From contig JAHFSZ010000018.1 of NCBI GenBank assembly GCA_023265515.1, positions 1 to 38,525 of the forward strand: a DNA stretch of 38,525 nucleotides, written 5' to 3'. Origin of the DNA: Verrucomicrobiota bacterium (GTDB lineage Bacteria > Verrucomicrobiota > Verrucomicrobiia > JABWAM01 > JAHFSZ01). The position numbers and the translations under genes are program-made. Below the pieces are notes generated by a model, which did no database searches, was not told where the DNA came from, and saw nothing but the letters and a program-made list of their open reading frames with translations. This document shows, piece by piece, positions 23,143 through 38,525 of this stretch. How positions within the stretch are numbered: the first letter of the stretch is position 1; every line of letters begins with the position of its first letter.

Positions 23143-26100
23143 CTATTGAGTGATTTTTTGAAAGTCGAGCGACGCCCGTAAATTCTCCAGCCTCGGGTCT
23201 GTGCGAGCGTAGCTTTTCAGATTCGGGTTGAGCTGAATCGCGCGCTTCAGCGACTTGACGCCTTCTTCGATCTGCTCGCTCCATGACTGGGCTACAGCCA
23301 GATTGTACCAGATCTGGTAGTTGTTCGGCTGCGTCCTGGTCTCGTTCTTGAGCAACGCCGACATTCGGCCGATCACTTTGGCATTATCATACATCTGAAC
23401 CACCTTCTGCAAGGCGCCCGACTCGGGCGACATCGTCTTCAGGTAACGGGAAACCACGCTGTCGAGTTCGTCGAATTTTTGCAAATTCGCCAGAACGGTG
23501 GTCAGCTGCAAAAAAATAAAGCTGTCAGACGGATTGGCTTGAAAACGGATCGTCAAGGGCAGCCGGTTGACAGCCATTTGCATGATGAGCTCGATGTTCC
23601 TCAACACGTCAATCAGCGCCTTGTTGTCGGGATCGCTATCAAGCAAAAATAGGGCGACGACGCGCGCCTCGTCATACCGTTCCTGTTTGATGTAGATATC
23701 GATCAACCGGGTGGCGGCCTCCGAGCTGCCCTCGAAAAGAGCGAGTGCCTGACGAAGGGCGATTTCCGCCTCCTTCTTCATCCCGCGGAACGCGTAGAGG
23801 CCACCGGTGGTGCTTCTGAGCTTTGCGAACGCACGGCGGGCAACGATATCGTCCAAAAATCTTGGATCGGAAAGCAGGCGGGTCATATATTGATTCCAGA
23901 ACGCCATATCCCTGCGAACGGCCTCGTCCGGAATCTTCGGGATCGGCTCTTTGTTCAACTTCATGATCAGGCCAAAAGGCTCGAGATACGGGTACATCCA
24001 GTTGAGCGGAAAACTCTCCTCCACGTAAAATGCATGATCCTTCTTGTTGTTTTCAAAAATGTCCCTGGCAATCGCGCCGTTGATCGCAAAAATGGCATTG
24101 ACTCCTTCCGCGCCAAGCCGCTGTGTTCCATTCTCTTCTTTGATGATCGTGACGCCCGAGTTGGGTTGATTGCGGAGTTCCTCGCAGACCTGGTTGAAAA
24201 GCTCGTTACAGCGGTCCAGGTCCGGAATCTTGAGGGGCTTCCTGGGATAGGTTTTGTCGCGTCCAAGCCACTTTTCAATGCGGTTGTAATTCGTTGGCCG
24301 GGTTTCGGCATAGTGGTCGCGGATGTAAGACATGTAGGTCGAATCGGCAAGCGCATTCTGGGTGATGATGTAAAGGTCGCGCCGGTCAAAATCGCGGCCT
24401 TTGGAATAGCGATGTTCCGGTTTGGCAAAACTCTCGACGAAAATCATGTAGGTTGGAACGAAACGGCCGGGATCGGTGCCGCCAAACAGCACCGCGTCCC
24501 GGTCCATGTTCTTGAGCATGTCATAACCAAACATCCATCCGAAGTCATGTCCCCGCTGGTCGCTTCCCCACGGCCGCCAGTCATTTCTCCAGCCGTTGTT
24601 GATGGCCAGCAACGTGGGCAGGAAAAAGACGGCGATGTACCTTGTGCTTCTCAGCATCTGGAAACGGAATGAACACCAGAGAAAGATGATAAATATGAAG
24701 ATGAAGAACAGAAGCGTGGGATAGACCAGGAACTCCGATTTGAACCCCGCCGCCAGCAGCATGAGTGTCGTTACAAAACCCAGGGCGATGATCCAGGACT
24801 GGATCGTCCGAATCTGATTGACCAGGGTGAAAAGCACCACGATACCGAGGCCAACCCATATGGAAAAAATCATGTGTGCCGTCGCGTAGAAGACCCGGTA
24901 GACAAAGAGCGTCTGCTCCTCAAACGAGGTGTTGGTGATATAAGTCAGAACCAGACTGAGAAACAGCCAGCCCACCAGCAGCACCGCGGCGTATTTCTTT
25001 TCGGTCTCCCCGCTGTCAAAGATTCCGATGAGCGCCAGCACTGCCAGGAGCGCAATCGGAAGCGTGTAGTTTGAAACAAGGTTGGTGTAATAAAATTCGA
25101 TCTGTTTGAAAAAGTCCTTTGTGTCACGCCCCTCCCTGATCGCATCGTACTGACCGCGTGTGACGCTGTGAACAAATCCCGAAACTGTTCCAGCATAGCT
25201 CCAGTTCATGGGAGGATTGGTCTTTGCTGACAGAGGCAGATAAAAATAGGCGCTGACACCAAGAATGCCTGCCAGGATCAGCAACAGCGCGCTTCGTCCG
25301 TTCCAAAGAACGTTGCCGCGTCCGCGCGCCATCAAGGCCAGGGGAAGCATAGCAGCCACGATGACGATCAAAACGATGATGGCCGCCATCCCGATGTCCT
25401 GGAGACCTGCCGCTCCCACGGGGATCAGACGCGTGACGGCCAGCAGAGGGAACTCCCACTGCCGGCTGATGCAAGTCGCGGCCGCAGCCCCGCCAAGCAG
25501 CGGAAGAAGCAACAAGGCCAGCAACAAGACCAGCTGGAGAGGCCCGAACATTTGGCGGCGGGGACGGATGAATTCGACGGCGATGAAGGCTCCAAGGGCG
25601 ATCGTAATCCCGATAGCATATTCATCCTGCTTGGCAATGCTGATGGCACTCGCCAATACCAGTGCATAGGGCGCAAGTATGCGCCACGAACCGAAAAAGG
25701 ACAGCAGCAGCTGGAACCAAACGCAAAAAATCAGCAGCAGCAGCGCCCAGTGAAAGTCAATCCGGTTGGTCAGCGTCGAGAAGCTCGAAACGTCGTTCAC
25801 ACATTCGGCCGCCAGAAAGCCGGCGGCGACCGGCAGGACAAGCGAAATCGCCAGAAAAACGATTCGGTCAGCGTCGAGTGATTCCCGGCAGCTGTAAATC
25901 AGCATCGCGGCGTAAACGACATAAAGAAAACCCGTCACCACGATCGCGAACTTTGTTCGCGTGCACCAGCACATCGTGCTTCCTGCCATCAACACATAAG
26001 GCAGCAGATCCCGCAGGATCCGCCAGTTCACGAAAGCCACAAAGAGCAAAAGGGCCGGTGCGAAAAGCAGGAGCGTCTGATGGTTGGTAAGGCCCAGCCC

Positions 26101-26661
26101 ATAAAATAACAAAGTCAGGAAGCCCCACAGCAACCTACCTGGATCGTAAAGCCAGCGAAGCATGAAGAGCAGGATCAGCGAGAAGACGAACGCATTGAGG
26201 CTGTAGACCTCGATGATCACCGACTGAGACCAGAGGCTTTCCAAAAATCCGAGCGAGAGGCCCCCCAACACACCGGCTGCAAAGAAAAGAAACCCGGGAT
26301 ATGCATCCCGCGGAAGGTTTTTGCGGATCGCCGGCGCGTTACTGAAACGTTCCGCCAGAAACGAGGTGATCAGTGCGATCACCCCGCAGGAAAGGGCTCC
26401 AAAGAAGCCTGAACAAAGATTCGCCCGCCAGGCGATGTTTCCGAAGGGCACCAGATGAATGAAAAGCCAGGTGACCATCGTCCAGAACGGATAGCCAGGA
26501 GGATGCGGCACTCCGAAACTCGCCGCCGCCGTTCCCAATTCGCCCGAGTCTTCCAGCGTGACGCTCGGAGCCACTGTGTAACAATAAACCAACTGAACGA
26601 TCGCGTAGACCACCCAGAATGCAAGCCAGTGCGAACGAGAAAAAAACTTCCCACGGTTCAT
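23143..26661 (-). CDS. DUF2723-type multispanning membrane protein with soluble C-terminal TPR-like region (putative GT-C-like)
   Basis: APSVTLEDSGELGTAAASFGVPHPPGYPFWTMVTWLF (DUF2723 signature), many TM segments, then a soluble TPR-like tail (WYNLAVAQSWSEQIEEGVKSLKRAIQLNPNLKSY). Confidence 0.85.
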   Translation of the reverse strand: MNRGKFFSRSHWLAFWVVYAIVQLVYCYTVAPSVTLEDSGELGTAAASFGVPHPPGYPFWTMVTWLFIHLVPFGNIAWRANLCSGFFGALSCGVIALITSFLAERFSNAPAIRKNLPRDAYPGFLFFAAGVLGGLSLGFLESLWSQSVIIEVYSLNAFVFSLILLFMLRWLYDPGRLLWGFLTLLFYGLGLTNHQTLLLFAPALLLFVAFVNWRILRDLLPYVLMAGSTMCWCTRTKFAIVVTGFLYVVYAAMLIYSCRESLDADRIVFLAISLVLPVAAGFLAAECVNDVSSFSTLTNRIDFHWALLLLIFCVWFQLLLSFFGSWRILAPYALVLASAISIAKQDEYAIGITIALGAFIAVEFIRPRRQMFGPLQLVLLLALLLLPLLGGAAAATCISRQWEFPLLAVTRLIPVGAAGLQDIGMAAIIVLIVIVAAMLPLALMARGRGNVLWNGRSALLLILAGILGVSAYFYLPLSAKTNPPMNWSYAGTVSGFVHSVTRGQYDAIREGRDTKDFFKQIEFYYTNLVSNYTLPIALLAVLALIGIFDSGETEKKYAAVLLVGWLFLSLVLTYITNTSFEEQTLFVYRVFYATAHMIFSIWVGLGIVVLFTLVNQIRTIQSWIIALGFVTTLMLLAAGFKSEFLVYPTLLFFIFIFIIFLWCSFRFQMLRSTRYIAVFFLPTLLAINNGWRNDWRPWGSDQRGHDFGWMFGYDMLKNMDRDAVLFGGTDPGRFVPTYMIFVESFAKPEHRYSKGRDFDRRDLYIITQNALADSTYMSYIRDHYAETRPTNYNRIEKWLGRDKTYPRKPLKIPDLDRCNELFNQVCEELRNQPNSGVTIIKEENGTQRLGAEGVNAIFAINGAIARDIFENNKKDHAFYVEESFPLNWMYPYLEPFGLIMKLNKEPIPKIPDEAVRRDMAFWNQYMTRLLSDPRFLDDIVARRAFAKLRSTTGGLYAFRGMKKEAEIALRQALALFEGSSEAATRLIDIYIKQERYDEARVVALFLLDSDPDNKALIDVLRNIELIMQMAVNRLPLTIRFQANPSDSFIFLQLTTVLANLQKFDELDSVVSRYLKTMSPESGALQKVVQMYDNAKVIGRMSALLKNETRTQPNNYQIWYNLAVAQSWSEQIEEGVKSLKRAIQLNPNLKSYARTDPRLENLRASLDFQKITQ

Positions 26662-27487: not shown

Positions 27488-30004
27488 CTACCCGGTCCGG
27501 TTCATCCCCTTGCCGGACCTCTTTCTTCCAGCGAAAACGCAAAAAAGACAACCGAAAAGGAGGACCAATGACCAGGCCCAAGTAGTGAAAATCAGCAGCC
27601 CGCGATCGAGATGGTAGGTGAAAACGACCTCCGCCCGGCCGGCCGGAATCGCCACGCCGCGCACGATGAAATTGGCGCGGAATATCCGGGCGGGCTGGCC
27701 ATTGACGGTCGCCCGCCAATCCGGATCGTATTTGTCGTTGAGCAACAGATAAGCCGGCTGGTCGGAATGCGCCTCGATCATGATCCGATTGTCGCTGTAC
27801 TCGCAGACCTGTGCCCCGAAATTTTTAGGCGCCGTGCCGGCTTTGGAAGCCGCGAGGCCGCTGGATGGCAGGGCCAGCACGGTTTTTTCGAAATCAATCC
27901 GGCCGCTTTTCATCAGGGCAAAAAGGTCGTCTGGATTTTTTGCAATTCGCATTTCGGGAACCACCAATGCCCTCGGCAGTGGATGACGGATTTGGAGCAG
28001 ACGATAGGCGCTTCCGGGCGCGTTTTCAGAAACTTCCGTGATGTGATCACCATCCGGTCCATTCTCCATCGCAAAGTCGGTCACCCACTCAAAGCGGTTC
28101 GACCCATACATCGCCGCAAGCTGCCCGGCAATGGCGCTCTGCGCGAGAACGTAACGCACGTTGCCCAGCTCCCACATCAGCACCTGATACGACTGCATCT
28201 GTTCGAAATAATACCTGTAATCGTCGGACGGGAGCGAACTAGCCGGGATGTCGATCGACTGAATTCGATGGTAGGGAATCTGGAAGAAGTAGAAACTGTT
28301 GAGGAGCGGATCAGTCACAATCATTTTGAACCTGGAAACCTCGTGCTTCTGGTCCTCGATGACGCGCTGGAGCATCGGATGGGTCGCAAGAACATCCTGA
28401 TACTTGAAGAACGACAGATAGTGCGACGCCACGAAGACCATCTCCGCGACGGAAAGCGCCACCCAGGCCAGCCCAATCCAAAGCAACCGTGCGGGGCGGC
28501 TTTCCGAGAAGCGCAGCGCGGCGACCACCAGGCCGCCCCAGCAGCCCCAGAAAAAAGCCGCTCTGAGCAGCGACCCGAACATCCCCCAGACGATCCTCAC
28601 AGCCTCGGACTGCGTCCGAAAATGCTCTGAAAACTGAAGTACCAGATCGTTCTGGTAAACCAGCACCAATACCGATCCGGCGGCCAAGCCAGCCGAAACA
28701 AACCAGAGACCCCGGGCGGCCTTGCGCGCCTGGCGTCGTCCGCCGGCACCGGTGGAGCCGGTCATGGCATCGACCATCACCTGGGCGCCAAATCCTGCAA
28801 GAAAGACGATGCAGAAGCTGGTCACGAAGAAAAACTTGTTGGGGTTCCGCCAAGCCTGAAAACCCGGAACATGTTCGAAAATCAGCCGGTAGCCCGGCAG
28901 GAATTTACCCAGTGAAAGCAGAAAACTGGCCATTGCCATCACGATGAAAAAACGGGCCAGCCCGGCCTGCCTGTCACGGATGTCATTGCCCGAATCCGCC
29001 GTGCGGCGCCGCCAGCATCCCCAGATTCCGAGCAGCGCCAGCGCCGCCACCGCCGTGCCCGTCGTCGGATTATCGATCCGGAAGTCGCGGAATCCCAGGT
29101 GGGTTTTTTCCCATCCCTCGGTCTGGCCAACCCGCCCCCAATAAGGCTGATCGGGATACCCCGTCTGCCATCCGAAAAAACCGGGGGCAACCAATTCAAA
29201 CACTTCCTCCGGAGCAAAGCTCCACTGCGCATGCCAATCCCACTTGTTCTCAGGCGACTCTCCCATTGGCGCGCCCAGATCATCGGCTCTGAGTCCGCTG
29301 GTTGCGCCGGGGATCAACGAGAAGAAAATCTGGCCACACAGCAGCAGGGTCACGATCGTTCCCAAGGCGGACTGCGCCCAAAACCGGACCATGCCGAGGG
29401 AGCGGTGGTTGAGCCAGATGAAAAAACAAACACCGCTGAGCGCGAGGATCGCTCCAGAATCGGCCAGTGCCCCGATCATCGTCGCGACCACGACCGACGC
29501 AAGCACCACGCCGCAAACGGGACGCGATTTCGATGCTTGCCAGAGGCCCAGATACATCAATGGGAGCACGCCCAACATCAATTGCCGGGAATGGTGGCCG
29601 CCGGGAATGTCCGTCAGACTGGATCCCACCAACTCCCATCCCAGCGCGAAGACCAGAGCTACGAAATCGGCGAATCCAAACGCGCGTCCGAGCGCAAACG
29701 CGCTCAACCCGCCAATTGCCAGGAAGAGCGGGATGCTCACTTTCGCGTAAACCACCGGCGGTAAAAGCCAGATCAGCACGTTCTCAAGACGCAAAAGAGG
29801 CAAGCCTGCTGGCAATCCCAGCCACCAGGAGTTGGACCAGTGCGCCTCCCATCCCTGACAAAGACGCTCATGTTGAACAATGAAGGTGGCGATGTTGCTG
29901 TCGCTGGTCATCACGAGCTGGCCCGACAGGAAGTTTTCCCAGAAGATCAGGAACGGCAAGACGAGCAGAAGGAGCAAATAGAGCCAGGGGCGATTGAGCT
30001 TCAT
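27488..30004 (-). CDS. YfhO-like large membrane protein (putative GT-C-like)
   Basis: 838 aa, about a dozen hydrophobic segments, C-terminal YSDNRIMIEAHSDQPAYLLLNDKYDPDWRATVNGQPARIFRANFIVRGVAIPAGRAEVVFTY characteristic of YfhO-type proteins. Confidence 0.78.
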   Translation of the reverse strand: MKLNRPWLYLLLLLVLPFLIFWENFLSGQLVMTSDSNIATFIVQHERLCQGWEAHWSNSWWLGLPAGLPLLRLENVLIWLLPPVVYAKVSIPLFLAIGGLSAFALGRAFGFADFVALVFALGWELVGSSLTDIPGGHHSRQLMLGVLPLMYLGLWQASKSRPVCGVVLASVVVATMIGALADSGAILALSGVCFFIWLNHRSLGMVRFWAQSALGTIVTLLLCGQIFFSLIPGATSGLRADDLGAPMGESPENKWDWHAQWSFAPEEVFELVAPGFFGWQTGYPDQPYWGRVGQTEGWEKTHLGFRDFRIDNPTTGTAVAALALLGIWGCWRRRTADSGNDIRDRQAGLARFFIVMAMASFLLSLGKFLPGYRLIFEHVPGFQAWRNPNKFFFVTSFCIVFLAGFGAQVMVDAMTGSTGAGGRRQARKAARGLWFVSAGLAAGSVLVLVYQNDLVLQFSEHFRTQSEAVRIVWGMFGSLLRAAFFWGCWGGLVVAALRFSESRPARLLWIGLAWVALSVAEMVFVASHYLSFFKYQDVLATHPMLQRVIEDQKHEVSRFKMIVTDPLLNSFYFFQIPYHRIQSIDIPASSLPSDDYRYYFEQMQSYQVLMWELGNVRYVLAQSAIAGQLAAMYGSNRFEWVTDFAMENGPDGDHITEVSENAPGSAYRLLQIRHPLPRALVVPEMRIAKNPDDLFALMKSGRIDFEKTVLALPSSGLAASKAGTAPKNFGAQVCEYSDNRIMIEAHSDQPAYLLLNDKYDPDWRATVNGQPARIFRANFIVRGVAIPAGRAEVVFTYHLDRGLLIFTTWAWSLVLLFGCLFCVFAGRKRSGKGMNRTG

Positions 30005-31288: not shown

Positions 31289-33694
31289 ATGGGCAACATA
31301 GCCAAGTTCAATTTTGGCACAAAAGCCGAAACGCTTGCGGCACTGAAGCCTGTCGTCAAAAAATCGCGCGTCCTTGATCTGATGTTCTTTCGTGTCGAGG
31401 ATTGGGAACACCGCAGAACGGAACTTCTGGAAGAGATATCTGACAAATTCAAAAACGGGTTGATTGCTATTCGCAGCAGTGCCATCGGCGAGGATGCCGA
31501 GCTCTCAGGCACAGCCGGAGCCTATAAAAGTTTGCTCCACGTCGAGCCACGAAACCGCCAAGCCGTGGAGGACGCTGTCAGGGCGGTGATCAGCGCCTAC
31601 AAAGGCAACCCACAGGACCAAATCCTACTGCAACCCATGCTCGCTGACGTCGCCATGAGCGGTGTGGTGATGACACGCGACCTCGAGGACGGCTCGCCCT
31701 ACTACGTCATCAATTACGACGACGAATCGGGAAAGACAGACTCCATCACGGGGGGTACCGGCGTCAACAAGACGGTACTCATCTACCATAAGGCGAACAA
31801 GAGCCATTTCACTTCGGAAAGAATCAGCAAGGTGATCGAGGTGGTCCAGGAGCTCGAGGCTTATTGCGGTTCGGTCCCGCTGGATATTGAGTTTGGAATG
31901 ACAAACGATGGCGAAGTCATCTTGTTCCAGGTGCGCCGCATCAGTGTCTGGAAAAACTGGCGTGCCGAGGTTGTTCTCGAAGTCGCCGAACGAATCCCCT
32001 CCATCGAAAACTTTGTCGCTGAAAGTTCCCTTCCGAGATCGGGCGTGCTTGGAAAGCGAACGATTCTGGGCGTGATGCCCGACTGGAATCCGGCGGAAAT
32101 GATTGGAACTACGCCCAACCCCCTCGCCGTCTCACTTTACCGGGAATTGATCACTCGCAGCACATGGCGCGATGCCAGGCTCAGCATGGGCTATCGCAAG
32201 CTCCCCGATCAGGAATTGATGATCGTCATTGGCGGTAGACCCTATATCGATGTCCGCAACAGCTTCAATTCGTTTCTTCCCGCCGGAGTGCCGGATGATG
32301 TCGGCGCAGCCATCGTGGATGCCTGGCTCGATCGCCTGGATGAGCATCCCGAGCTCCACGATAAGGTTGAATTCGAAGTCGCCCAAACATGCCTGGATTT
32401 CACCTTCCATGAAGTGTGCCAAGAACGATACGGAAACCTGCTCCCCGCCCCAATGTTCAGAGTTTTCCAGGATTGCCTAGGCACGCTCACGCGAAATGCC
32501 TTGGATCTGGGCGCGGGCGGAAGTCTTGCAAAAGCCGAAAGGACGATCGCCGATTTGGAAGAGCGCCAAAAATCGAGATCTTCAAAAAAATCCCCTGCGG
32601 GAAACCTCCCGCTCATCGCCCAGGTTGCCGAATTACTGGATCAATGCAGGGAAATGGGAGTCCTGCCGTTCAGCGTGCTTGCAAGACATGCCTTCATCGC
32701 TGAGTCCTTCCTCCGATCCACCGTTCGGAAAGAGGCGCTGACTGCCAGCAGAGTCAGTGTGTTCAAGCGTTCGATTCGGACCATCACCAACTCCCTGTCT
32801 GAGGACCTCTGCGCTGTGTCCACAGGCAAAACCAACCCCCAGCAATTCCTGGCACGTTATGGACATCTCCGGCCAAGCACCTATAGCATCAACTCATTCA
32901 GATATGCCGATCGGGATGACATATTCCAGGGATGCCTGCCATCGATTGAAATTCCTCGCGTCGAATTTCATCCAACTGCACGAGAAAAAGCGGCTCTTGA
33001 ACAGCTTCTCCGTGAGATCCAAATGCCTGAAATCAGCGCAGAACAACTCCTCGAGTACATCCGCAGGGCCATTGCCGGACGGGAGTATGCCAAATTTGTG
33101 TTCACGCGGGATCTCTCGGATGCCCTTGAATTGCTTGCGCTGTGGGGGGAAGAACTCAGTCTGAGTCGTGAAAATGTCGCGAACATCAAAATTTCGGAGA
33201 TCCTCGAAATGCTGACGATTCCTCATTTGACCGATCAACGGGCGCATTTTTTCAAAATTGCCGAAGCCGGCGTGAAACAGATGTCCATCGCACGGGCAAT
33301 CAAGCTCGGTTTTCTCATCCGGAGCGCGAAGGACATCTACGTGGTCCCCCTTCATCGAAGCGCACCCAACTTCATTGGATCGGCACATGTCCAAGGTCCG
33401 ATTGTTTTTATCGACACTCGATGCTTGGGGCCACTGGATTTGCATGACAAACTCGTCTGTATCAATAATGCTGATCCTGGATTCGATTTCATTTTTAGCA
33501 AAGGGATCCGCGGCTTGATCACCAAATACGGGGGCGCTAATTCGCACATGGCCATCCGATGCGCGGAGTTCGGCCTGCCTGCAGCGATTGGATGTGGCGA
33601 ACAAATCTTTGATCGGATCATCGCTGCGGGCTCTGTGGATCTCAACTGCCGCGAAAAAGTATTGCGCCCCCTGCATGAAAATGAAGCCGCTTAG
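31289..33694 (+). CDS. PEP-synthase-like ATP-dependent kinase; putative L-glutamine kinase (Cj1418-type)
   Basis: N-terminal ATP-binding region (GLIAIRSSAIGEDAELSGTAGAYKSLLHV...LDIEFGMTNDGEVILFQVRRIS) and C-terminal phosphohistidine swivel domain (GLITKYGGANSHMAIRCAEFGLPAAIG). Specific assignment relies on order with the next three genes. Confidence 0.85.
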   Translation: MGNIAKFNFGTKAETLAALKPVVKKSRVLDLMFFRVEDWEHRRTELLEEISDKFKNGLIAIRSSAIGEDAELSGTAGAYKSLLHVEPRNRQAVEDAVRAVISAYKGNPQDQILLQPMLADVAMSGVVMTRDLEDGSPYYVINYDDESGKTDSITGGTGVNKTVLIYHKANKSHFTSERISKVIEVVQELEAYCGSVPLDIEFGMTNDGEVILFQVRRISVWKNWRAEVVLEVAERIPSIENFVAESSLPRSGVLGKRTILGVMPDWNPAEMIGTTPNPLAVSLYRELITRSTWRDARLSMGYRKLPDQELMIVIGGRPYIDVRNSFNSFLPAGVPDDVGAAIVDAWLDRLDEHPELHDKVEFEVAQTCLDFTFHEVCQERYGNLLPAPMFRVFQDCLGTLTRNALDLGAGGSLAKAERTIADLEERQKSRSSKKSPAGNLPLIAQVAELLDQCREMGVLPFSVLARHAFIAESFLRSTVRKEALTASRVSVFKRSIRTITNSLSEDLCAVSTGKTNPQQFLARYGHLRPSTYSINSFRYADRDDIFQGCLPSIEIPRVEFHPTAREKAALEQLLREIQMPEISAEQLLEYIRRAIAGREYAKFVFTRDLSDALELLALWGEELSLSRENVANIKISEILEMLTIPHLTDQRAHFFKIAEAGVKQMSIARAIKLGFLIRSAKDIYVVPLHRSAPNFIGSAHVQGPIVFIDTRCLGPLDLHDKLVCINNADPGFDFIFSKGIRGLITKYGGANSHMAIRCAEFGLPAAIGCGEQIFDRIIAAGSVDLNCREKVLRPLHENEAA

Positions 33695-34352
33695 CATCGA
33701 ACGGATCGGCCTGACGATGCGGGTCGATCAGGCCCCAGAGAGCTCCGAATGGCGCGACGCCTTGGCACAGGATTGGTCCGAATTCATGGCTTATGCCTTG
33801 CCGGAAGTTGCCTGGATGCCCCTTCCCAACCTCGGCTCGAAAGTGATCGACTTTGCCCGGCGCTGGAAACTGGACGGCTTCATTCTCACTGGCGGAAATG
33901 ACGTGGGCGCTTGCCGTATCAAAGACGAAACCGATTACGCGCTCTTAAAGCACGCCGAGGCTGGCAACATTCCTGTGTATGGCGTCTGTCGCGGCTTGCA
34001 GGTCATCCAGAAATACCACGGTGGCAAACTAGAGGCTTGCCCTTCTTCCGAGCATGTTGCAAAGCAACACCAAGTAAGCTTTGCCGGCAATTTTAACGTC
34101 CGCAGCCTCGCGAACCGTACAAAAACCGTCAACTCCTTCCACAATTGGGGCATGAGACTCAGCGAACTGAGTCCTGCGCTCGCCCCTCTTGCAGTCATGG
34201 ATGGTGACTGGGTGGAAGCCGCTCATGCCAAGCAAGGAAGAGCCATTGCGGTGATGTGGCACCCGGAACGCCAAAGACCGTTTCAGGACTTCGATCGGGA
34301 TCTGATCCGCTACGCCTTCGGCCTTGAGGATCCTGTGACCCAATTCCCGTGA
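33675..34352 (+). CDS. class I glutamine amidotransferase-like (peptidase C26) hydrolase; putative gamma-glutamyl-CDP-amidate hydrolase (Cj1417-type)
   Basis: DGFILTGGNDVG, nucleophile elbow IPVYGVCRGLQVIQKYHGG, catalytic-His region IAVMWHPERQRPF. Start at 33675/33681 overlaps the preceding gene end; the ORF-track start at 33588 is probably too long. Confidence 0.87.
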   Translation: MKMKPLSIERIGLTMRVDQAPESSEWRDALAQDWSEFMAYALPEVAWMPLPNLGSKVIDFARRWKLDGFILTGGNDVGACRIKDETDYALLKHAEAGNIPVYGVCRGLQVIQKYHGGKLEACPSSEHVAKQHQVSFAGNFNVRSLANRTKTVNSFHNWGMRLSELSPALAPLAVMDGDWVEAAHAKQGRAIAVMWHPERQRPFQDFDRDLIRYAFGLEDPVTQFP

Positions 34353-35113
34353 CGGCAATCATTCTAGCAGCAGGGCGTGGTTCCCGTTTGAACCAGCTCA
34401 CCGACCAAAGGCCCAAATGCCTCGTCGAGCTACAAGGCCGTTCCCTCCTCAACTGGCAGACGTCGGCGCTCCGCAGCGCCGGGATTCAGGACATCGTCGT
34501 GGTCCGCGGCTATGGCAAGGATTCGCTGCCAGGTGATGGTTATTCGCTCATCGACAATCCCCGGTGGGAAAGCACAAACATGGTGGCAAGCCTTCAGTGT
34601 GCCTCTTCCATTCTGCAAAAAAAAATCACCCTCGTCTCTTATGGCGATATCGTTTACCATCCGTCGATCATCCTGCGGCTGATCCAATCGGATGGGGACC
34701 TCGTCATCACCTACGATCGGCTGTGGAAGGAACTCTGGGAGGCCCGATTTGAAGACCCCCTGAAAGATGCGGAGACGTTTCAAACGCGAAACGGGTATGT
34801 GATCGCCATCGGAAGCAAAACGGAACGAATCGACGAAATTGAAGGACAGTATATGGGACTTTTGAAGTTTACCCCCTCCGGCTGGGCTGCGGTGGAAGGA
34901 ATCCTGGCAGGAGTGTCCGATGAGATTCGGGATCGGATGGATATGACCGGACTGATCAGCCGCCTCATCGCTGTGGGCCATCGGATCCGCGCCATACCGG
35001 TGGAGGGCGGCTGGTGTGAGGTTGACACCGAACAGGATCTTCGTCTTTACAAGCGGAAGACGGCGGAGGCGGATCAAACCGGAACGAGATGGAACCACGA
35101 TTGGCGCTGGTGA
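34349..35113 (+). CDS. nucleotidyltransferase (LicC-like); putative CTP:phosphoglutamine cytidylyltransferase (Cj1416-type)
   Basis: TAIILAAGRGSRLNQLTDQRPKCLVELQGRSLLNWQ (pyrophosphorylase signature), YSLIDNPRWESTNMVASLQCA, VSYGDIVYHPSII. GTG start overlapping the previous stop (GTGA). Confidence 0.88.
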   Translation: MTAIILAAGRGSRLNQLTDQRPKCLVELQGRSLLNWQTSALRSAGIQDIVVVRGYGKDSLPGDGYSLIDNPRWESTNMVASLQCASSILQKKITLVSYGDIVYHPSIILRLIQSDGDLVITYDRLWKELWEARFEDPLKDAETFQTRNGYVIAIGSKTERIDEIEGQYMGLLKFTPSGWAAVEGILAGVSDEIRDRMDMTGLISRLIAVGHRIRAIPVEGGWCEVDTEQDLRLYKRKTAEADQTGTRWNHDWRW

Positions 35114-35119
35114 CGACGG

Positions 35120-35653
35120 ATGTGGACCATGGTGATCTGGCTCATAGGACTTTCGGGTGCGGGAAAAACAACGATCGGGAGGGAGGTCTGCCGGCTCTGG
35201 AAGGCAAAAGAACCCCAAACCGTCCTGATCGATGGCGATGAAATCCGCCGGATCTTCAAACAGGATCGGGAGCCGGATGCATACTCGATCAAAGGGCGGG
35301 CTGCCAATGCCGAGCGCATCGCCGAGGTGTGTCTTTGGCTCGACCGGCAGGGCATCAACGTCGTTTGCTGCATTCTCTCGATCTTCGAAGAAACCCGTTC
35401 CTGGAATCGGCATCATTACTCAAAATACTTCGAGGTGTACGTCTCCGTACCGCTCGAAATTTTAGCCGAACGGGACCCCAAAGGACTCTACCGAAGCGCA
35501 AAAGCGGGGCAAATTCGTAATGTTGTTGGAATCGACATTCCTTTCTCGCCGCCCAAAAATCCAGATTGGGTTTTTGACAATAGCAAACCTGGGCTTGATC
35601 CCGAGGCCGCCGCGAAGCAGATCCTTTCAAAAGCGGGAGTTTTTTTCCAATGA
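35120..35653 (+). CDS. adenylylsulfate kinase-like (CysC family); putative cytidine diphosphoramidate kinase (Cj1415-type)
   Basis: VIWLIGLSGAGKTTIGREV (P-loop), VLIDGDEIRRIF, NVVCCILSIFEETRSWNR, VSVPLEILAERDPKGLYRSAKAGQIRNVVGIDIPFSPPKNPDWV. Confidence 0.88.
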   Translation: MWTMVIWLIGLSGAGKTTIGREVCRLWKAKEPQTVLIDGDEIRRIFKQDREPDAYSIKGRAANAERIAEVCLWLDRQGINVVCCILSIFEETRSWNRHHYSKYFEVYVSVPLEILAERDPKGLYRSAKAGQIRNVVGIDIPFSPPKNPDWVFDNSKPGLDPEAAAKQILSKAGVFFQ

Positions 35654-36240
35654 AGTCCGGCCACTATCCTTATGCAACAGGCGATCTTCTCGATGACCGT
35701 CACAATTATTTCTACACACCCTACGAAGGTCTCACGTTTTTGAAAGCCTGGGAGGAAGATCGGAATCGTGTCCTTGCCTCCCTCCCCGCGCCGCAACCAG
35801 CTCCAAGAACAAACGGCTGCCCTGAATTTCGCGAAGGTGATCGCATCGACACAATATCCCTTTTGGAGTTTCTTTGCCACAAGCTTGAATCGAGCGCGCA
35901 AGAAATACCCGACTCCGTTCGGCCATGGCTTGACAGATTGCTCCAGCGATTTGAGGTGAACAAGCGTCTCCACGACGAATATGACTCTCACTTCCACCCG
36001 AACGACAGGAACGCATTCCGACGACTGGATCTCTATCTTCGTTTCGCCGAGGTGATGGCGGCGGCGCATCACCGCACCTCCAAGCTTACCTACCTGAACG
36101 TCCTTTTGAAATGCCTCGACACGCTGTCGGCCCTGCGGGACAGGCTCGATAAGGCAGGCCAGGCCCGCCTCGCCCATCTTATCCTGGAAGAACGCCGGTT
36201 TGTCCGTGCGGTCGCAGAGAAGGTCAAAGTGAAATTATGA
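35650..36240 (+). CDS. uncharacterised protein in phosphoramidate-type operon
   Basis: 196-aa ORF with ATGA overlap to the upstream gene and to the downstream gene; no recognised domain (MKSGHYPYATGDLLDDRHNYFYTPYEGLTFLKAWEEDRN...). Confidence 0.75.
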   Translation: MKSGHYPYATGDLLDDRHNYFYTPYEGLTFLKAWEEDRNRVLASLPAPQPAPRTNGCPEFREGDRIDTISLLEFLCHKLESSAQEIPDSVRPWLDRLLQRFEVNKRLHDEYDSHFHPNDRNAFRRLDLYLRFAEVMAAAHHRTSKLTYLNVLLKCLDTLSALRDRLDKAGQARLAHLILEERRFVRAVAEKVKVKL

Positions 36241-36968
36241 TGCAGCTGAATGGTGTTCTTTTCCTGGCTGCCTATACGAGCCGGTCGCAAACTTATGCCC
36301 AAGCCATGGCTGCCAAGGGTCTGCGACCCGCTGGAGCGTTGCTTTTTGGCGATGCTGCGGCCCAACACCCACAGGAACTGGGATTCCCGCTCCCGGGAGG
36401 CATTCCTGCAAACATTTTTCTCCCCAACCTCAAGTTTCCCTTACGAACAACGTGCGACCAGGCTGGGTGGCCCGTGACGGCTGTCGAGTCCGCAAACATC
36501 AACGACATCAAGGTTCATGACGCGGTACGAGACCTTAAACCCCGCCTGATCATTTATTCGGGTTATGGCGGCCAGATCATTAAAAAAGATCTCTTGGATC
36601 TTGGAACTCCCTTCCTTCATTTCCACGCCGGCTGGCTGCCCGATGAGCGCGGAAGCACCACCATCTATTACAGCCTGCTGATGAACGGCGATTGCAGTGT
36701 CACGGCGCTCCTCCTGGACAAACAGATCGACACCGGCGCGATTCTGGCCCGCCGCCGCTATTCCAGACCGCCTCCCCGTCTCAACGTGGACCATTATTAT
36801 GACAGTGCAATCCGCGCCGACCTGTTGGTGGACATCCTGATTGGCCTGCACAAGGAAGGGCGGTTGCCCGTTCCGATCCCGCAGGAACCGCGTCAGGGCA
36901 CAACCTATTACGTCATCCATCCGGTTCTCAAGCACATCACCCTCCTCTCCCTCGAAGAAGATTCCTGA
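36237..36968 (+). CDS. formyltransferase-family protein
   Basis: LIIYSGYGGQIIKKDLLDLGTPFLHFHAGWLPDERGSTTIYYSLLMNGDCSVTALLLDKQIDTGAILARRRY resembles the formyltransferase catalytic N-terminal domain (HxxxLP...GxxT/S...D.G.I). ATGA overlap with upstream gene. Confidence 0.8.
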   Translation: MMQLNGVLFLAAYTSRSQTYAQAMAAKGLRPAGALLFGDAAAQHPQELGFPLPGGIPANIFLPNLKFPLRTTCDQAGWPVTAVESANINDIKVHDAVRDLKPRLIIYSGYGGQIIKKDLLDLGTPFLHFHAGWLPDERGSTTIYYSLLMNGDCSVTALLLDKQIDTGAILARRRYSRPPPRLNVDHYYDSAIRADLLVDILIGLHKEGRLPVPIPQEPRQGTTYYVIHPVLKHITLLSLEEDS

Positions 36969-36991: not shown

Positions 36992-38525
36992 ATGAAGAAC
37001 GTCATCTGCATCATCGTGGACTCACTTCGATACGACCGCCTCGGGTTCGCAGGCCATGCCCCGGACCCGTCCCCGACGATCAACCGCCTGATGTCCTCCG
37101 GTCTTGCTTTCAAGAACTGTTTCGCTGTCGGGTGCCCGACCGACTTTTCTTATCCGGGGCTGTTCACTTCGACACTCCCTCTGGACCGCGGCGGGTATAC
37201 TTTAGGCATCAGCAACCGGAAAAAGAACCTGGCCGAGGTTTTCAGGGACGCCGGATATCGAACCGCCTTCTTCGTTCAGGACGCCTGGCCATCCAACTGG
37301 GGTTATACGCGCGGCTCCGATGACATCTATCCGTTATACGACCTGGCGCGTTTCAAAACCGAAGTCCTCGGCAGCCAGAAGTTTTACAATAATCTTTGGA
37401 AAGCCAACCCGGCTGGGAAACGCGAGTACGTGGCCAGATTTCAAACCTACCTTTCGGGGTTCTTCGAGGATCTCCGAAGCTATTGCACCCGGATGACCAC
37501 CCCATCGAGCGAACCAGCGATTCTTCGCTCACTGATGCTTCATGACCACGACTTCAATGCGATGTTGAAAATGGTCCACGAGGCAGAGTCTGAATTTCGC
37601 GCTGACCCCGAGCGCACCGCCCTGCGCTTCCTCGAAGCAAGCGACGATCCCTTTTACACTCAACTCGCCTCGCTCGTGGCGGCCCGCACGGACAACCCGC
37701 ACACCATCGATGTCGACCGGCCGCTTCGCGCTCTTCTCATCCTGGTTTTGCTTCATCTGACCATGCAAGTCGCGCTCGACAAGGCGAGCGTGATCGTGAC
37801 GCTCAAGTGCATGCAACGACTTTTGAAAAAACAGAGTAAATCGGTCTGGTATTCATCAGCCGGCTACATGTTCAACAACTTATTCAGCTGGTTGGATGGC
37901 GTTGGAGACCGGCGTTTCTTTGCATGGATCCACACCGCCGACGTCCACGAGCTCAACTTCACCTCGTACGACATTCCCGGCGCCGGATCGATCGTCGCGG
38001 ACGAAATCCGGGAGGCGAAGAAACTTTATTCAGGCATGACATCGCGCCTCGCTTCATACCGGGGCAATCCGATGTATGATTTCTCCATCCGCTACACGGA
38101 CGCCCAAATCGCCCGCCTTCTGGAATATCTCAAACAACGCGATCTCCTGAAGGACACGTTGATTCTCATCACCGCCGACCACGGGCACTTTCACGCGGGC
38201 TGGCCGGTTCGCAACAAGGTGCATGTCACGTCACATTTTTACGACGACCTTTACCATGTACCGCTCGTGTTCGCGGGCGACGGTGTCCCTGCTCGTGTTT
38301 TCGATGGATTATGTTCCTCACTGGATGTGGGCCCTACTTTACTCGATCTGGTCGGCTTGCCCGCCCCGGAATGTTTTCAAGGAACTCCCCTGAATCGGAA
38401 AGACTCCGTTGGCCGCACACACGTCCTCATGGAGCACATGGGCAGCGGGTTTTGCGATTTCCAGGCCAAACCTATCGGCATCTGTGTGCGCAGCAGCCAA
38501 TGGAAGCTTGTTTATGTCATGCCAC
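36992..38525 (+). CDS. sulfatase-like / alkaline phosphatase superfamily protein (C-terminus cut by window edge)
   Basis: ATG at 36992: MKNVICIIVDSLRYDRLGFAGHAPDPSPTINRLMSSGLAFKNCFAVGCPTDFSYPGLFTSTLP...DAQIARLLEYLKQRDLLKDTLILITADHGHFHAGWPVRNKVHVTSHFYDDLYHVPLVFAGDGV. Open at the window end, so absent from the ORF track. Confidence 0.88.
   Translation, partial: MKNVICIIVDSLRYDRLGFAGHAPDPSPTINRLMSSGLAFKNCFAVGCPTDFSYPGLFTSTLPLDRGGYTLGISNRKKNLAEVFRDAGYRTAFFVQDAWPSNWGYTRGSDDIYPLYDLARFKTEVLGSQKFYNNLWKANPAGKREYVARFQTYLSGFFEDLRSYCTRMTTPSSEPAILRSLMLHDHDFNAMLKMVHEAESEFRADPERTALRFLEASDDPFYTQLASLVAARTDNPHTIDVDRPLRALLILVLLHLTMQVALDKASVIVTLKCMQRLLKKQSKSVWYSSAGYMFNNLFSWLDGVGDRRFFAWIHTADVHELNFTSYDIPGAGSIVADEIREAKKLYSGMTSRLASYRGNPMYDFSIRYTDAQIARLLEYLKQRDLLKDTLILITADHGHFHAGWPVRNKVHVTSHFYDDLYHVPLVFAGDGVPARVFDGLCSSLDVGPTLLDLVGLPAPECFQGTPLNRKDSVGRTHVLMEHMGSGFCDFQAKPIGICVRSSQWKLVYVMP

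Follow-up and report, generated by a model that had tools for sequence, protein, structure and literature searches.

A verrucomicrobial operon that probably makes and uses an activated phosphoramidate, with a formyltransferase-like back end

Organization of the locus

In this study, we focus on an operon at the end of contig JAHFSZ010000018.1 of a Verrucomicrobiota bacterium (assembly GCA_023265515.1), which probably makes and uses an activated phosphoramidate through enzymes of the same families as Cj1418, Cj1417, Cj1416, and Cj1415 of Campylobacter jejuni. The window analysed is the whole contig (38,525 bases), and the host assembly comprises 2.2 Mb in 103 contigs and is 88.5% complete. Placement of the host in the Verrucomicrobiota agrees with DnaJ from this contig, whose identity is 57% to DnaJ of four genomes titled Verrucomicrobiota and no more than 51% to full-length DnaJ of the other phyla tested. 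The operon contains the following genes, under the names used throughout:

31289..33694, plus strand: KIN, L-glutamine kinase-like protein, 801 amino acids (NF004508, PF01326, PF00391)
33675 or 33681..34352, plus strand: GAT, class I glutamine amidotransferase (GATase)/C26-type hydrolase (best family NF045546; Cys-His-Glu invariant)
34349..35113, plus strand: NTT, LicC/MobA-like nucleotidyltransferase (PF12804; LicC, 1jyk, is the nearest solved structure by sequence)
35120..35653, plus strand: APSK, adenylylsulfate (APS)-kinase-like P-loop kinase of back-end type B (PF01583, NF004041; tree position)
35650..36240, plus strand: U196, all-helical protein of 196 amino acids, family-less, which travels with APSK and FORM
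36237..36968, plus strand: FORM, formyltransferase-fold protein (PF00551-like; H128-x-H130 and D165; C-terminal HPxLxH)
36992..38525, plus strand, cut by the contig end: SULF, member of the sulfatase/alkaline-phosphatase superfamily (PF00884; Thr50)

An earlier note on this DNA had described the first four genes as a nearly fused plus-strand set, and their coordinates, order, and all quoted motifs were confirmed. The overlaps it reported are also present: the possible ATG starts of GAT at 33675 and 33681 both lie within the end of the KIN gene, and the stop of GAT and the start of NTT have GTGA in common. A listed TTG start for GAT at 33588 was rejected as too far upstream. The four-gene extent did not stand, as the operon runs past 35653 with U196, FORM, and SULF and thus comprises at least seven genes; ATGA overlaps join APSK to U196 and U196 to FORM, a gap of 23 nt precedes SULF, and the contig ends inside SULF at 38525. 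An Rfam scan gave no match, and promoter and terminator scans returned signals no commoner than in shuffles.

Third-position GC is 0.61–0.69 in the cluster genes versus 0.70–0.79 in six other contig genes checked. Within the host class, the kinase is present in 7 of 384 genomes and FORM in the host genome only. Because of this lower third-position GC and the rarity of both genes in the class, the operon looks acquired.

The conserved front end: KIN, GAT, and NTT

KIN combines an N-terminal PPDK_N ATP-binding domain with a C-terminal swivelling phospho-His domain (GGANSHM, His753). It scores 891 bits on NF004508 (E 6e-268, cut-off 501), and the next family, or any phosphoenolpyruvate (PEP) synthase model, reaches at most 44 bits. 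The GGANSHM His is invariant in 76 of 76 homologues, and the ATP-site residues are also invariant. For GAT, the top family is NF045546 (gamma-glutamyl-CDP-amidate hydrolase, GCDPHdlase) at 91.6 bits, and the same family ranks first for 10 of 10 GAT homologues drawn from both locus types described below, at 75–127 bits and in every case below the cut-off. The catalytic Cys of VCRG and the His and Glu of WHPER are each conserved in 73/73 homologues, and the Lys of the NTT motif RPK in 74/74. GAT is a candidate gamma-glutamyl-CDP-amidate hydrolase and NTT a candidate CTP:L-glutamine-phosphate cytidylyltransferase.

Across a set of 89 loci from about 15 phyla, GAT and NTT are each present in 75, some loci being cut by contig ends. 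Natural fusions, marked here by a tilde, occur as NTT~KIN in five loci (L003, L006, L086, L088, and L089) and as KIN~GAT in L010, and they tie the KIN, GAT, and NTT activities together. The latter fusion lies on a gut contig filed as phage (L010:652-3687), where a glutamine-kinase-like~C26/GATase protein is encoded in one frame of 1011 amino acids; neither NTT nor APSK was detected on this 9.5 kb contig.

Distribution and two back ends

In a scan of named genomes, at least 568 proteins were confirmed as relatives of KIN. The best 80 of these span about 15 phyla, including the archaeon Haloferax elongans, which is among their isolates together with Oceanibacterium, Methylotenera, Roseivirga, and Pseudomonas. 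Viral contigs searched with the window kinase yielded none, and plasmid and phage searches gave no Campylobacter copy. One locus, L070, comes from a record titled Akkermansia muciniphila, but at 5.2 Mb its genome exceeds what that species would have, and the label is doubtful.

Two main back ends accompany the front end. In type A, a methyltransferase, MT1, accompanies APSK (e.g., L002, L012, L020, and L139), while type B, to which the window belongs, carries APSK, U196, and FORM. MT1 (22/89) and FORM (35/89) never occur in one locus (Fisher p 2e-6, indicative given that the rows are related). FORM is absent genome-wide from 13 of 13 checked genomes with MT1 loci and present in five type-B controls. 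Among 249 Pseudomonas genomes, FORM occurs in eight, and each of these belongs to the 22 genomes that encode KIN (hypergeometric p about 1e-9, relatedness ignored). No MT1 was found in the window, which ends at 38525; the only match there is a weak one to another methyltransferase, MT2, 8.9 kb away. In some loci, X415, a protein of ~400 amino acids with a weak GDSL/SGNH match, stands for U196 and FORM beside APSK (L056:12344-13639, L057, L060, L071, and L078); the idea that it is a diverged U196+FORM fusion was rejected, as HHalign shows no similarity.

The back-end label switches at least 10 times on the kinase tree and about four times on the APSK tree, which indicates modular exchange between front and back ends. 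The closest kinase to the window KIN is of type A (L013, 53%), and in Desulfovibrionaceae the kinases of L046 (type A) and L091 (type B) are sisters with different back ends, which points to a recent swap of the tailoring module.

The APS-kinase-like fourth enzyme

The window APSK matches PF01583 at 121 bits and NF004041 at 163 bits, and the P-loop G and K are conserved in 65/65 homologues. While it shares the P-loop and the DGD-x-x-R core with CysC (APS kinase), it falls in a separate clade and has an altered nucleotide-binding block. A tree of 80 sequences places the 13 true CysC domains, those of E. coli and the host CysNC among them, apart from the locus APSKs (97/92), with the exception of three odd locus APSKs that are long-branched or CysC-like. 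The block that CysC conserves around its nucleotide has been lost from the locus APSKs, which share other residues of their own. A true CysC role for APSK is ruled out by this split together with the separate true CysNC of the host genome (G000:C15), and the protein is a candidate CDP-amidate 3′-kinase. A clade of 41 APSKs linked to U196/FORM or X415 (100/97) contains the window APSK, with the MT1-linked groups separate; the latter are the better formal match to the gene content of C. jejuni.

Comparison with the Campylobacter pathway

P-N bonds are seldom met in biology. To our knowledge, the sole biosynthetic route to a glycan phosphoramidate described at the enzyme level is that of Campylobacter. 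Of two reviews, one calls its kinase C. jejuni-specific (PMC9561416) and the other states that the phosphoramidate modification has been identified in Campylobacter only (PMC6429109), and the gene for the O-methyl methyltransferase is unassigned in C. jejuni (PMC11800397). Bare phosphoramidate has been reported in the lipopolysaccharide (LPS) of Xanthomonas campestris and Shewanella, with no genes named (PMC3907429). Among the open-access papers searched, we found none on the pathway outside Campylobacter, an earlier mention of homologues elsewhere being possible.

The window encodes the same four enzyme families as Cj1415–Cj1418, and the order kinase, hydrolase, cytidylyltransferase, and CysC-like kinase matches that given for C. 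jejuni in the earlier note. Unlike the C. jejuni pathway, it has at least seven genes, with U196, FORM, and SULF added and MT1 absent, and it comes from a Verrucomicrobiota genome. Type A loci share the KIN-GAT-NTT front end with the window but continue with MT1 and an APSK of other subclade(s), which is the arrangement expected from C. jejuni. Since MT1 is absent and a formyltransferase-like pair takes its place, the product of the window need not be O-methyl phosphoramidate. The proposal of the earlier note, that a Cj1418-17-16-15-type pathway to an activated phosphoramidate is encoded here, is supported by family matches, catalytic residues, gene sets that recur across about 15 phyla, fusions, and an APSK distinct from CysC.

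U196 and FORM

U196 matches none of the Pfam, NCBIfam, or PHROG families. Its AlphaFold model is all-helical with a predicted local distance difference test (pLDDT) value of 93.6, and a fold search of the PDB gave no significant match (best E 0.018). The protein is fused to APSK or FORM in eight loci and occurs together with FORM in 33, where both APSK~U196 and U196~FORM fusions are found. The U196~FORM fusion of L018, modelled as one unit (pLDDT 91.3, predicted template modelling score 0.89), gives FORM a formyltransferase fold in a Foldseek search (E 3.5e-11 to ArnA). On PF00551, the window FORM scores 23.7, just under the gathering score of 26.1.

FORM shares this fold, and the triad residues His and Asp, with ArnA, Fmt, WbkC, and FdtF; it differs from them in having His for Asn, no OB domain, an HPxLxH motif, and coupling or fusion to U196. 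The catalytic triad is His-His-Asp rather than Asn-His-Asp: its Asn has become His in 34 of 34 members, whereas the solved formyltransferase relatives shown carry Asn at this position. The window protein has H128-x-H130, keeps D165, and has no C-terminal OB domain. The C-terminal HPxLxH is invariant (HPxLKH in nearly all members), as are D185, D189, and R193, and Fmt and ArnA show none of these features. FORM retains the LP-x-x-(R/K)G loop along with the other two triad residues. His-x-His also appears in distant U196~FORM fusions of Pseudomonas (L141:1321-2685, L146:1337-2713, and L088:14904-16268). These three loci carry NTT~KIN, GAT, NTT, and a GPT-like gene (see below) with the fusion, and they do so without APSK.

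SULF and candidate transferases

SULF lacks the sulfatase motif C/S-x-P-S/A-R (CxPSR) and has Thr50 where the sulfatase nucleophile Cys sits. Phosphotransferases in the superfamily, EptA for one, likewise have Thr there. Thr occupies the position in all three SULF proteins, those of the window, L075, and L086, all from phosphoramidate loci; the gene lies between NTT and APSK in L075 and upstream of NTT~KIN in L086. Transfer of the phosphoramidyl group by SULF is a speculative assignment. A CDP-glycerol-glycerophosphotransferase-like protein of PF04464, here GPT, is frequent in type B loci (17/18 with FORM) and is a natural candidate for taking the group from a CDP-linked donor. On a Vibrio alfacsensis plasmid (L006:12951-14033), a PF04464 transferase gene comes right after NTT~KIN, GAT, and NTT, without APSK, which suggests direct use of the CDP-amidate.

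On the opposite strand of the window, large TMEM260-like and YfhO-type membrane proteins are encoded beside GT2 genes (23143-26661 and 27488-30004, both minus strand); these neighbours of the operon are probably glycan-related.

Proposed pathway and alternative explanations

From the families, catalytic residues, gene order, conservation, and co-occurrence seen in the sequence, we infer every reaction below as well as the acceptor, the formyl step being the most inferential of all. If the enzymes act as those proved in C. jejuni do, KIN would phosphorylate the side-chain amide of L-glutamine, and NTT would transfer CMP from CTP onto L-glutamine phosphate to give CDP-L-glutamine. GAT would then hydrolyse the gamma-glutamyl amide, releasing glutamate and cytidine diphosphoramidate (P-NH2), whose 3′-OH APSK would phosphorylate. 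U196 and FORM may modify the activated phosphoramidate or a carrier intermediate, replacing the methyltransferase of the other common version, most likely through formyl transfer from N10-formyl-tetrahydrofolate. Finally, a transferase would attach the group to its acceptor, which is probably a surface glycan; the candidate transferase is SULF in the window and the CDP-glycerol-glycerophosphotransferase-like protein in Beta- and Gammaproteobacteria. That one operon makes and uses an activated phosphoramidate in this way, with U196 and FORM modifying it and a transferase placing it, is in our judgement probable. We advance more tentatively, as a possibility that may well prove wrong, that the U196/FORM back end yields a formylated phosphoramidate, as P-NH-CHO or as a formylated precursor. 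This surface decoration, previously undescribed, would replace O-methyl phosphoramidate in many phyla.

Several points weigh against this interpretation. Orthology to Cj1415–Cj1418 was judged through NCBIfam models only; the NF004508 score bears on the family model, which need not include Cj1418, and the score of GAT lies far under the NF045546 cut-off of 250. Since the contig breaks off within SULF, genes for the transferase and the acceptor may lie beyond its end, and SULF was found in only three loci. Eight FORM loci carry MT2, and formyl versus methyl is accordingly no strict either-or. With His in place of the catalytic Asn, FORM might not transfer formyl at all, and the FdtA sugar genes, 15 of 15 of which lie in FORM loci, fit a sugar role for FORM as well.

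This last point bears on an alternative that leaves the front end unchanged and makes FORM an amino-sugar N-formyltransferase acting on the same glycan, with U196 as its partner and the phosphoramidate left bare (P-NH2). The FORM fold indeed matches the sugar N-formyltransferases WbkC and FdtF, FdtA is confined to FORM loci, and bare phosphoramidate is known from LPS (PMC3907429). However, at least five type-B loci (L018, L024, L034, L038, and L044) carry a second, Asn-x-His formyltransferase in addition to FORM, three of the five having been checked against Pfam and the other two assigned by cluster and motif, and a further three (L047, L076, and L082) carry a hexapeptide acyltransferase. Because such amino-sugar loci have their own canonical formyltransferase or acyltransferase, FORM is unlikely to be a mere sugar formylase, and a role as sole sugar formylase is rejected for the loci with a second, canonical formyltransferase. 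In many loci, including the window, FORM and U196 are found with neither FdtA nor DegT, and fusions link U196 to APSK. Overall, we regard this alternative as unlikely.

We likewise think it improbable that U196 and FORM transfer no formyl group and that the altered site has been re-used, e.g., for phosphoramidyl transfer or hydrolysis. The uniform replacement of the catalytic Asn, which holds in the distant Pseudomonas fusions, and the new invariants HPxLxH, D185, D189, and R193 would suit such re-use, but the fold, the LP-x-x-(R/K)G loop, and two triad residues are all intact. That the activated phosphoramidate ends up in a small molecule, and not in a surface glycan, appears distinctly improbable for the window. 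An Agrobacterium vitis plasmid does carry KIN-GAT-NTT and, after them, genes for a LysE exporter and a CDP-alcohol phosphatidyltransferase, with no APSK (L009:8914-14003), and that locus may make a secreted phosphoramidate small molecule; in the window, by contrast, the opposite-strand neighbours are glycosyltransferases and YfhO/TMEM260-type glycan proteins, and glycan genes (DegT, FdtA, and GT61) accompany many related loci. The view that the four genes are an ordinary PEP synthase, PuuD, LicC, and CysC, names that their general domain families do suggest, is scarcely credible, as scores, trees, and gene context contradict it for the kinase, the hydrolase, and APSK, none of which groups with the corresponding enzymes as the earlier note had allowed they might.

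Implications

The preferred reading remains a pathway to an activated phosphoramidate that is modified by U196 and FORM. With at least 568 kinase relatives, in about 15 phyla and an archaeon, the pathway appears to be general and much wider than stated previously (PMC9561416, PMC6429109). Its alternative back ends provide candidate genes for capping and transfer and lead one to expect a family of phosphoramidates that differ in their caps. The gene set is also a possible genetic source of the phosphoramidates in Xanthomonas and Shewanella LPS, and the wide spread of the kinase brings the pathway within experimental reach outside Campylobacter.

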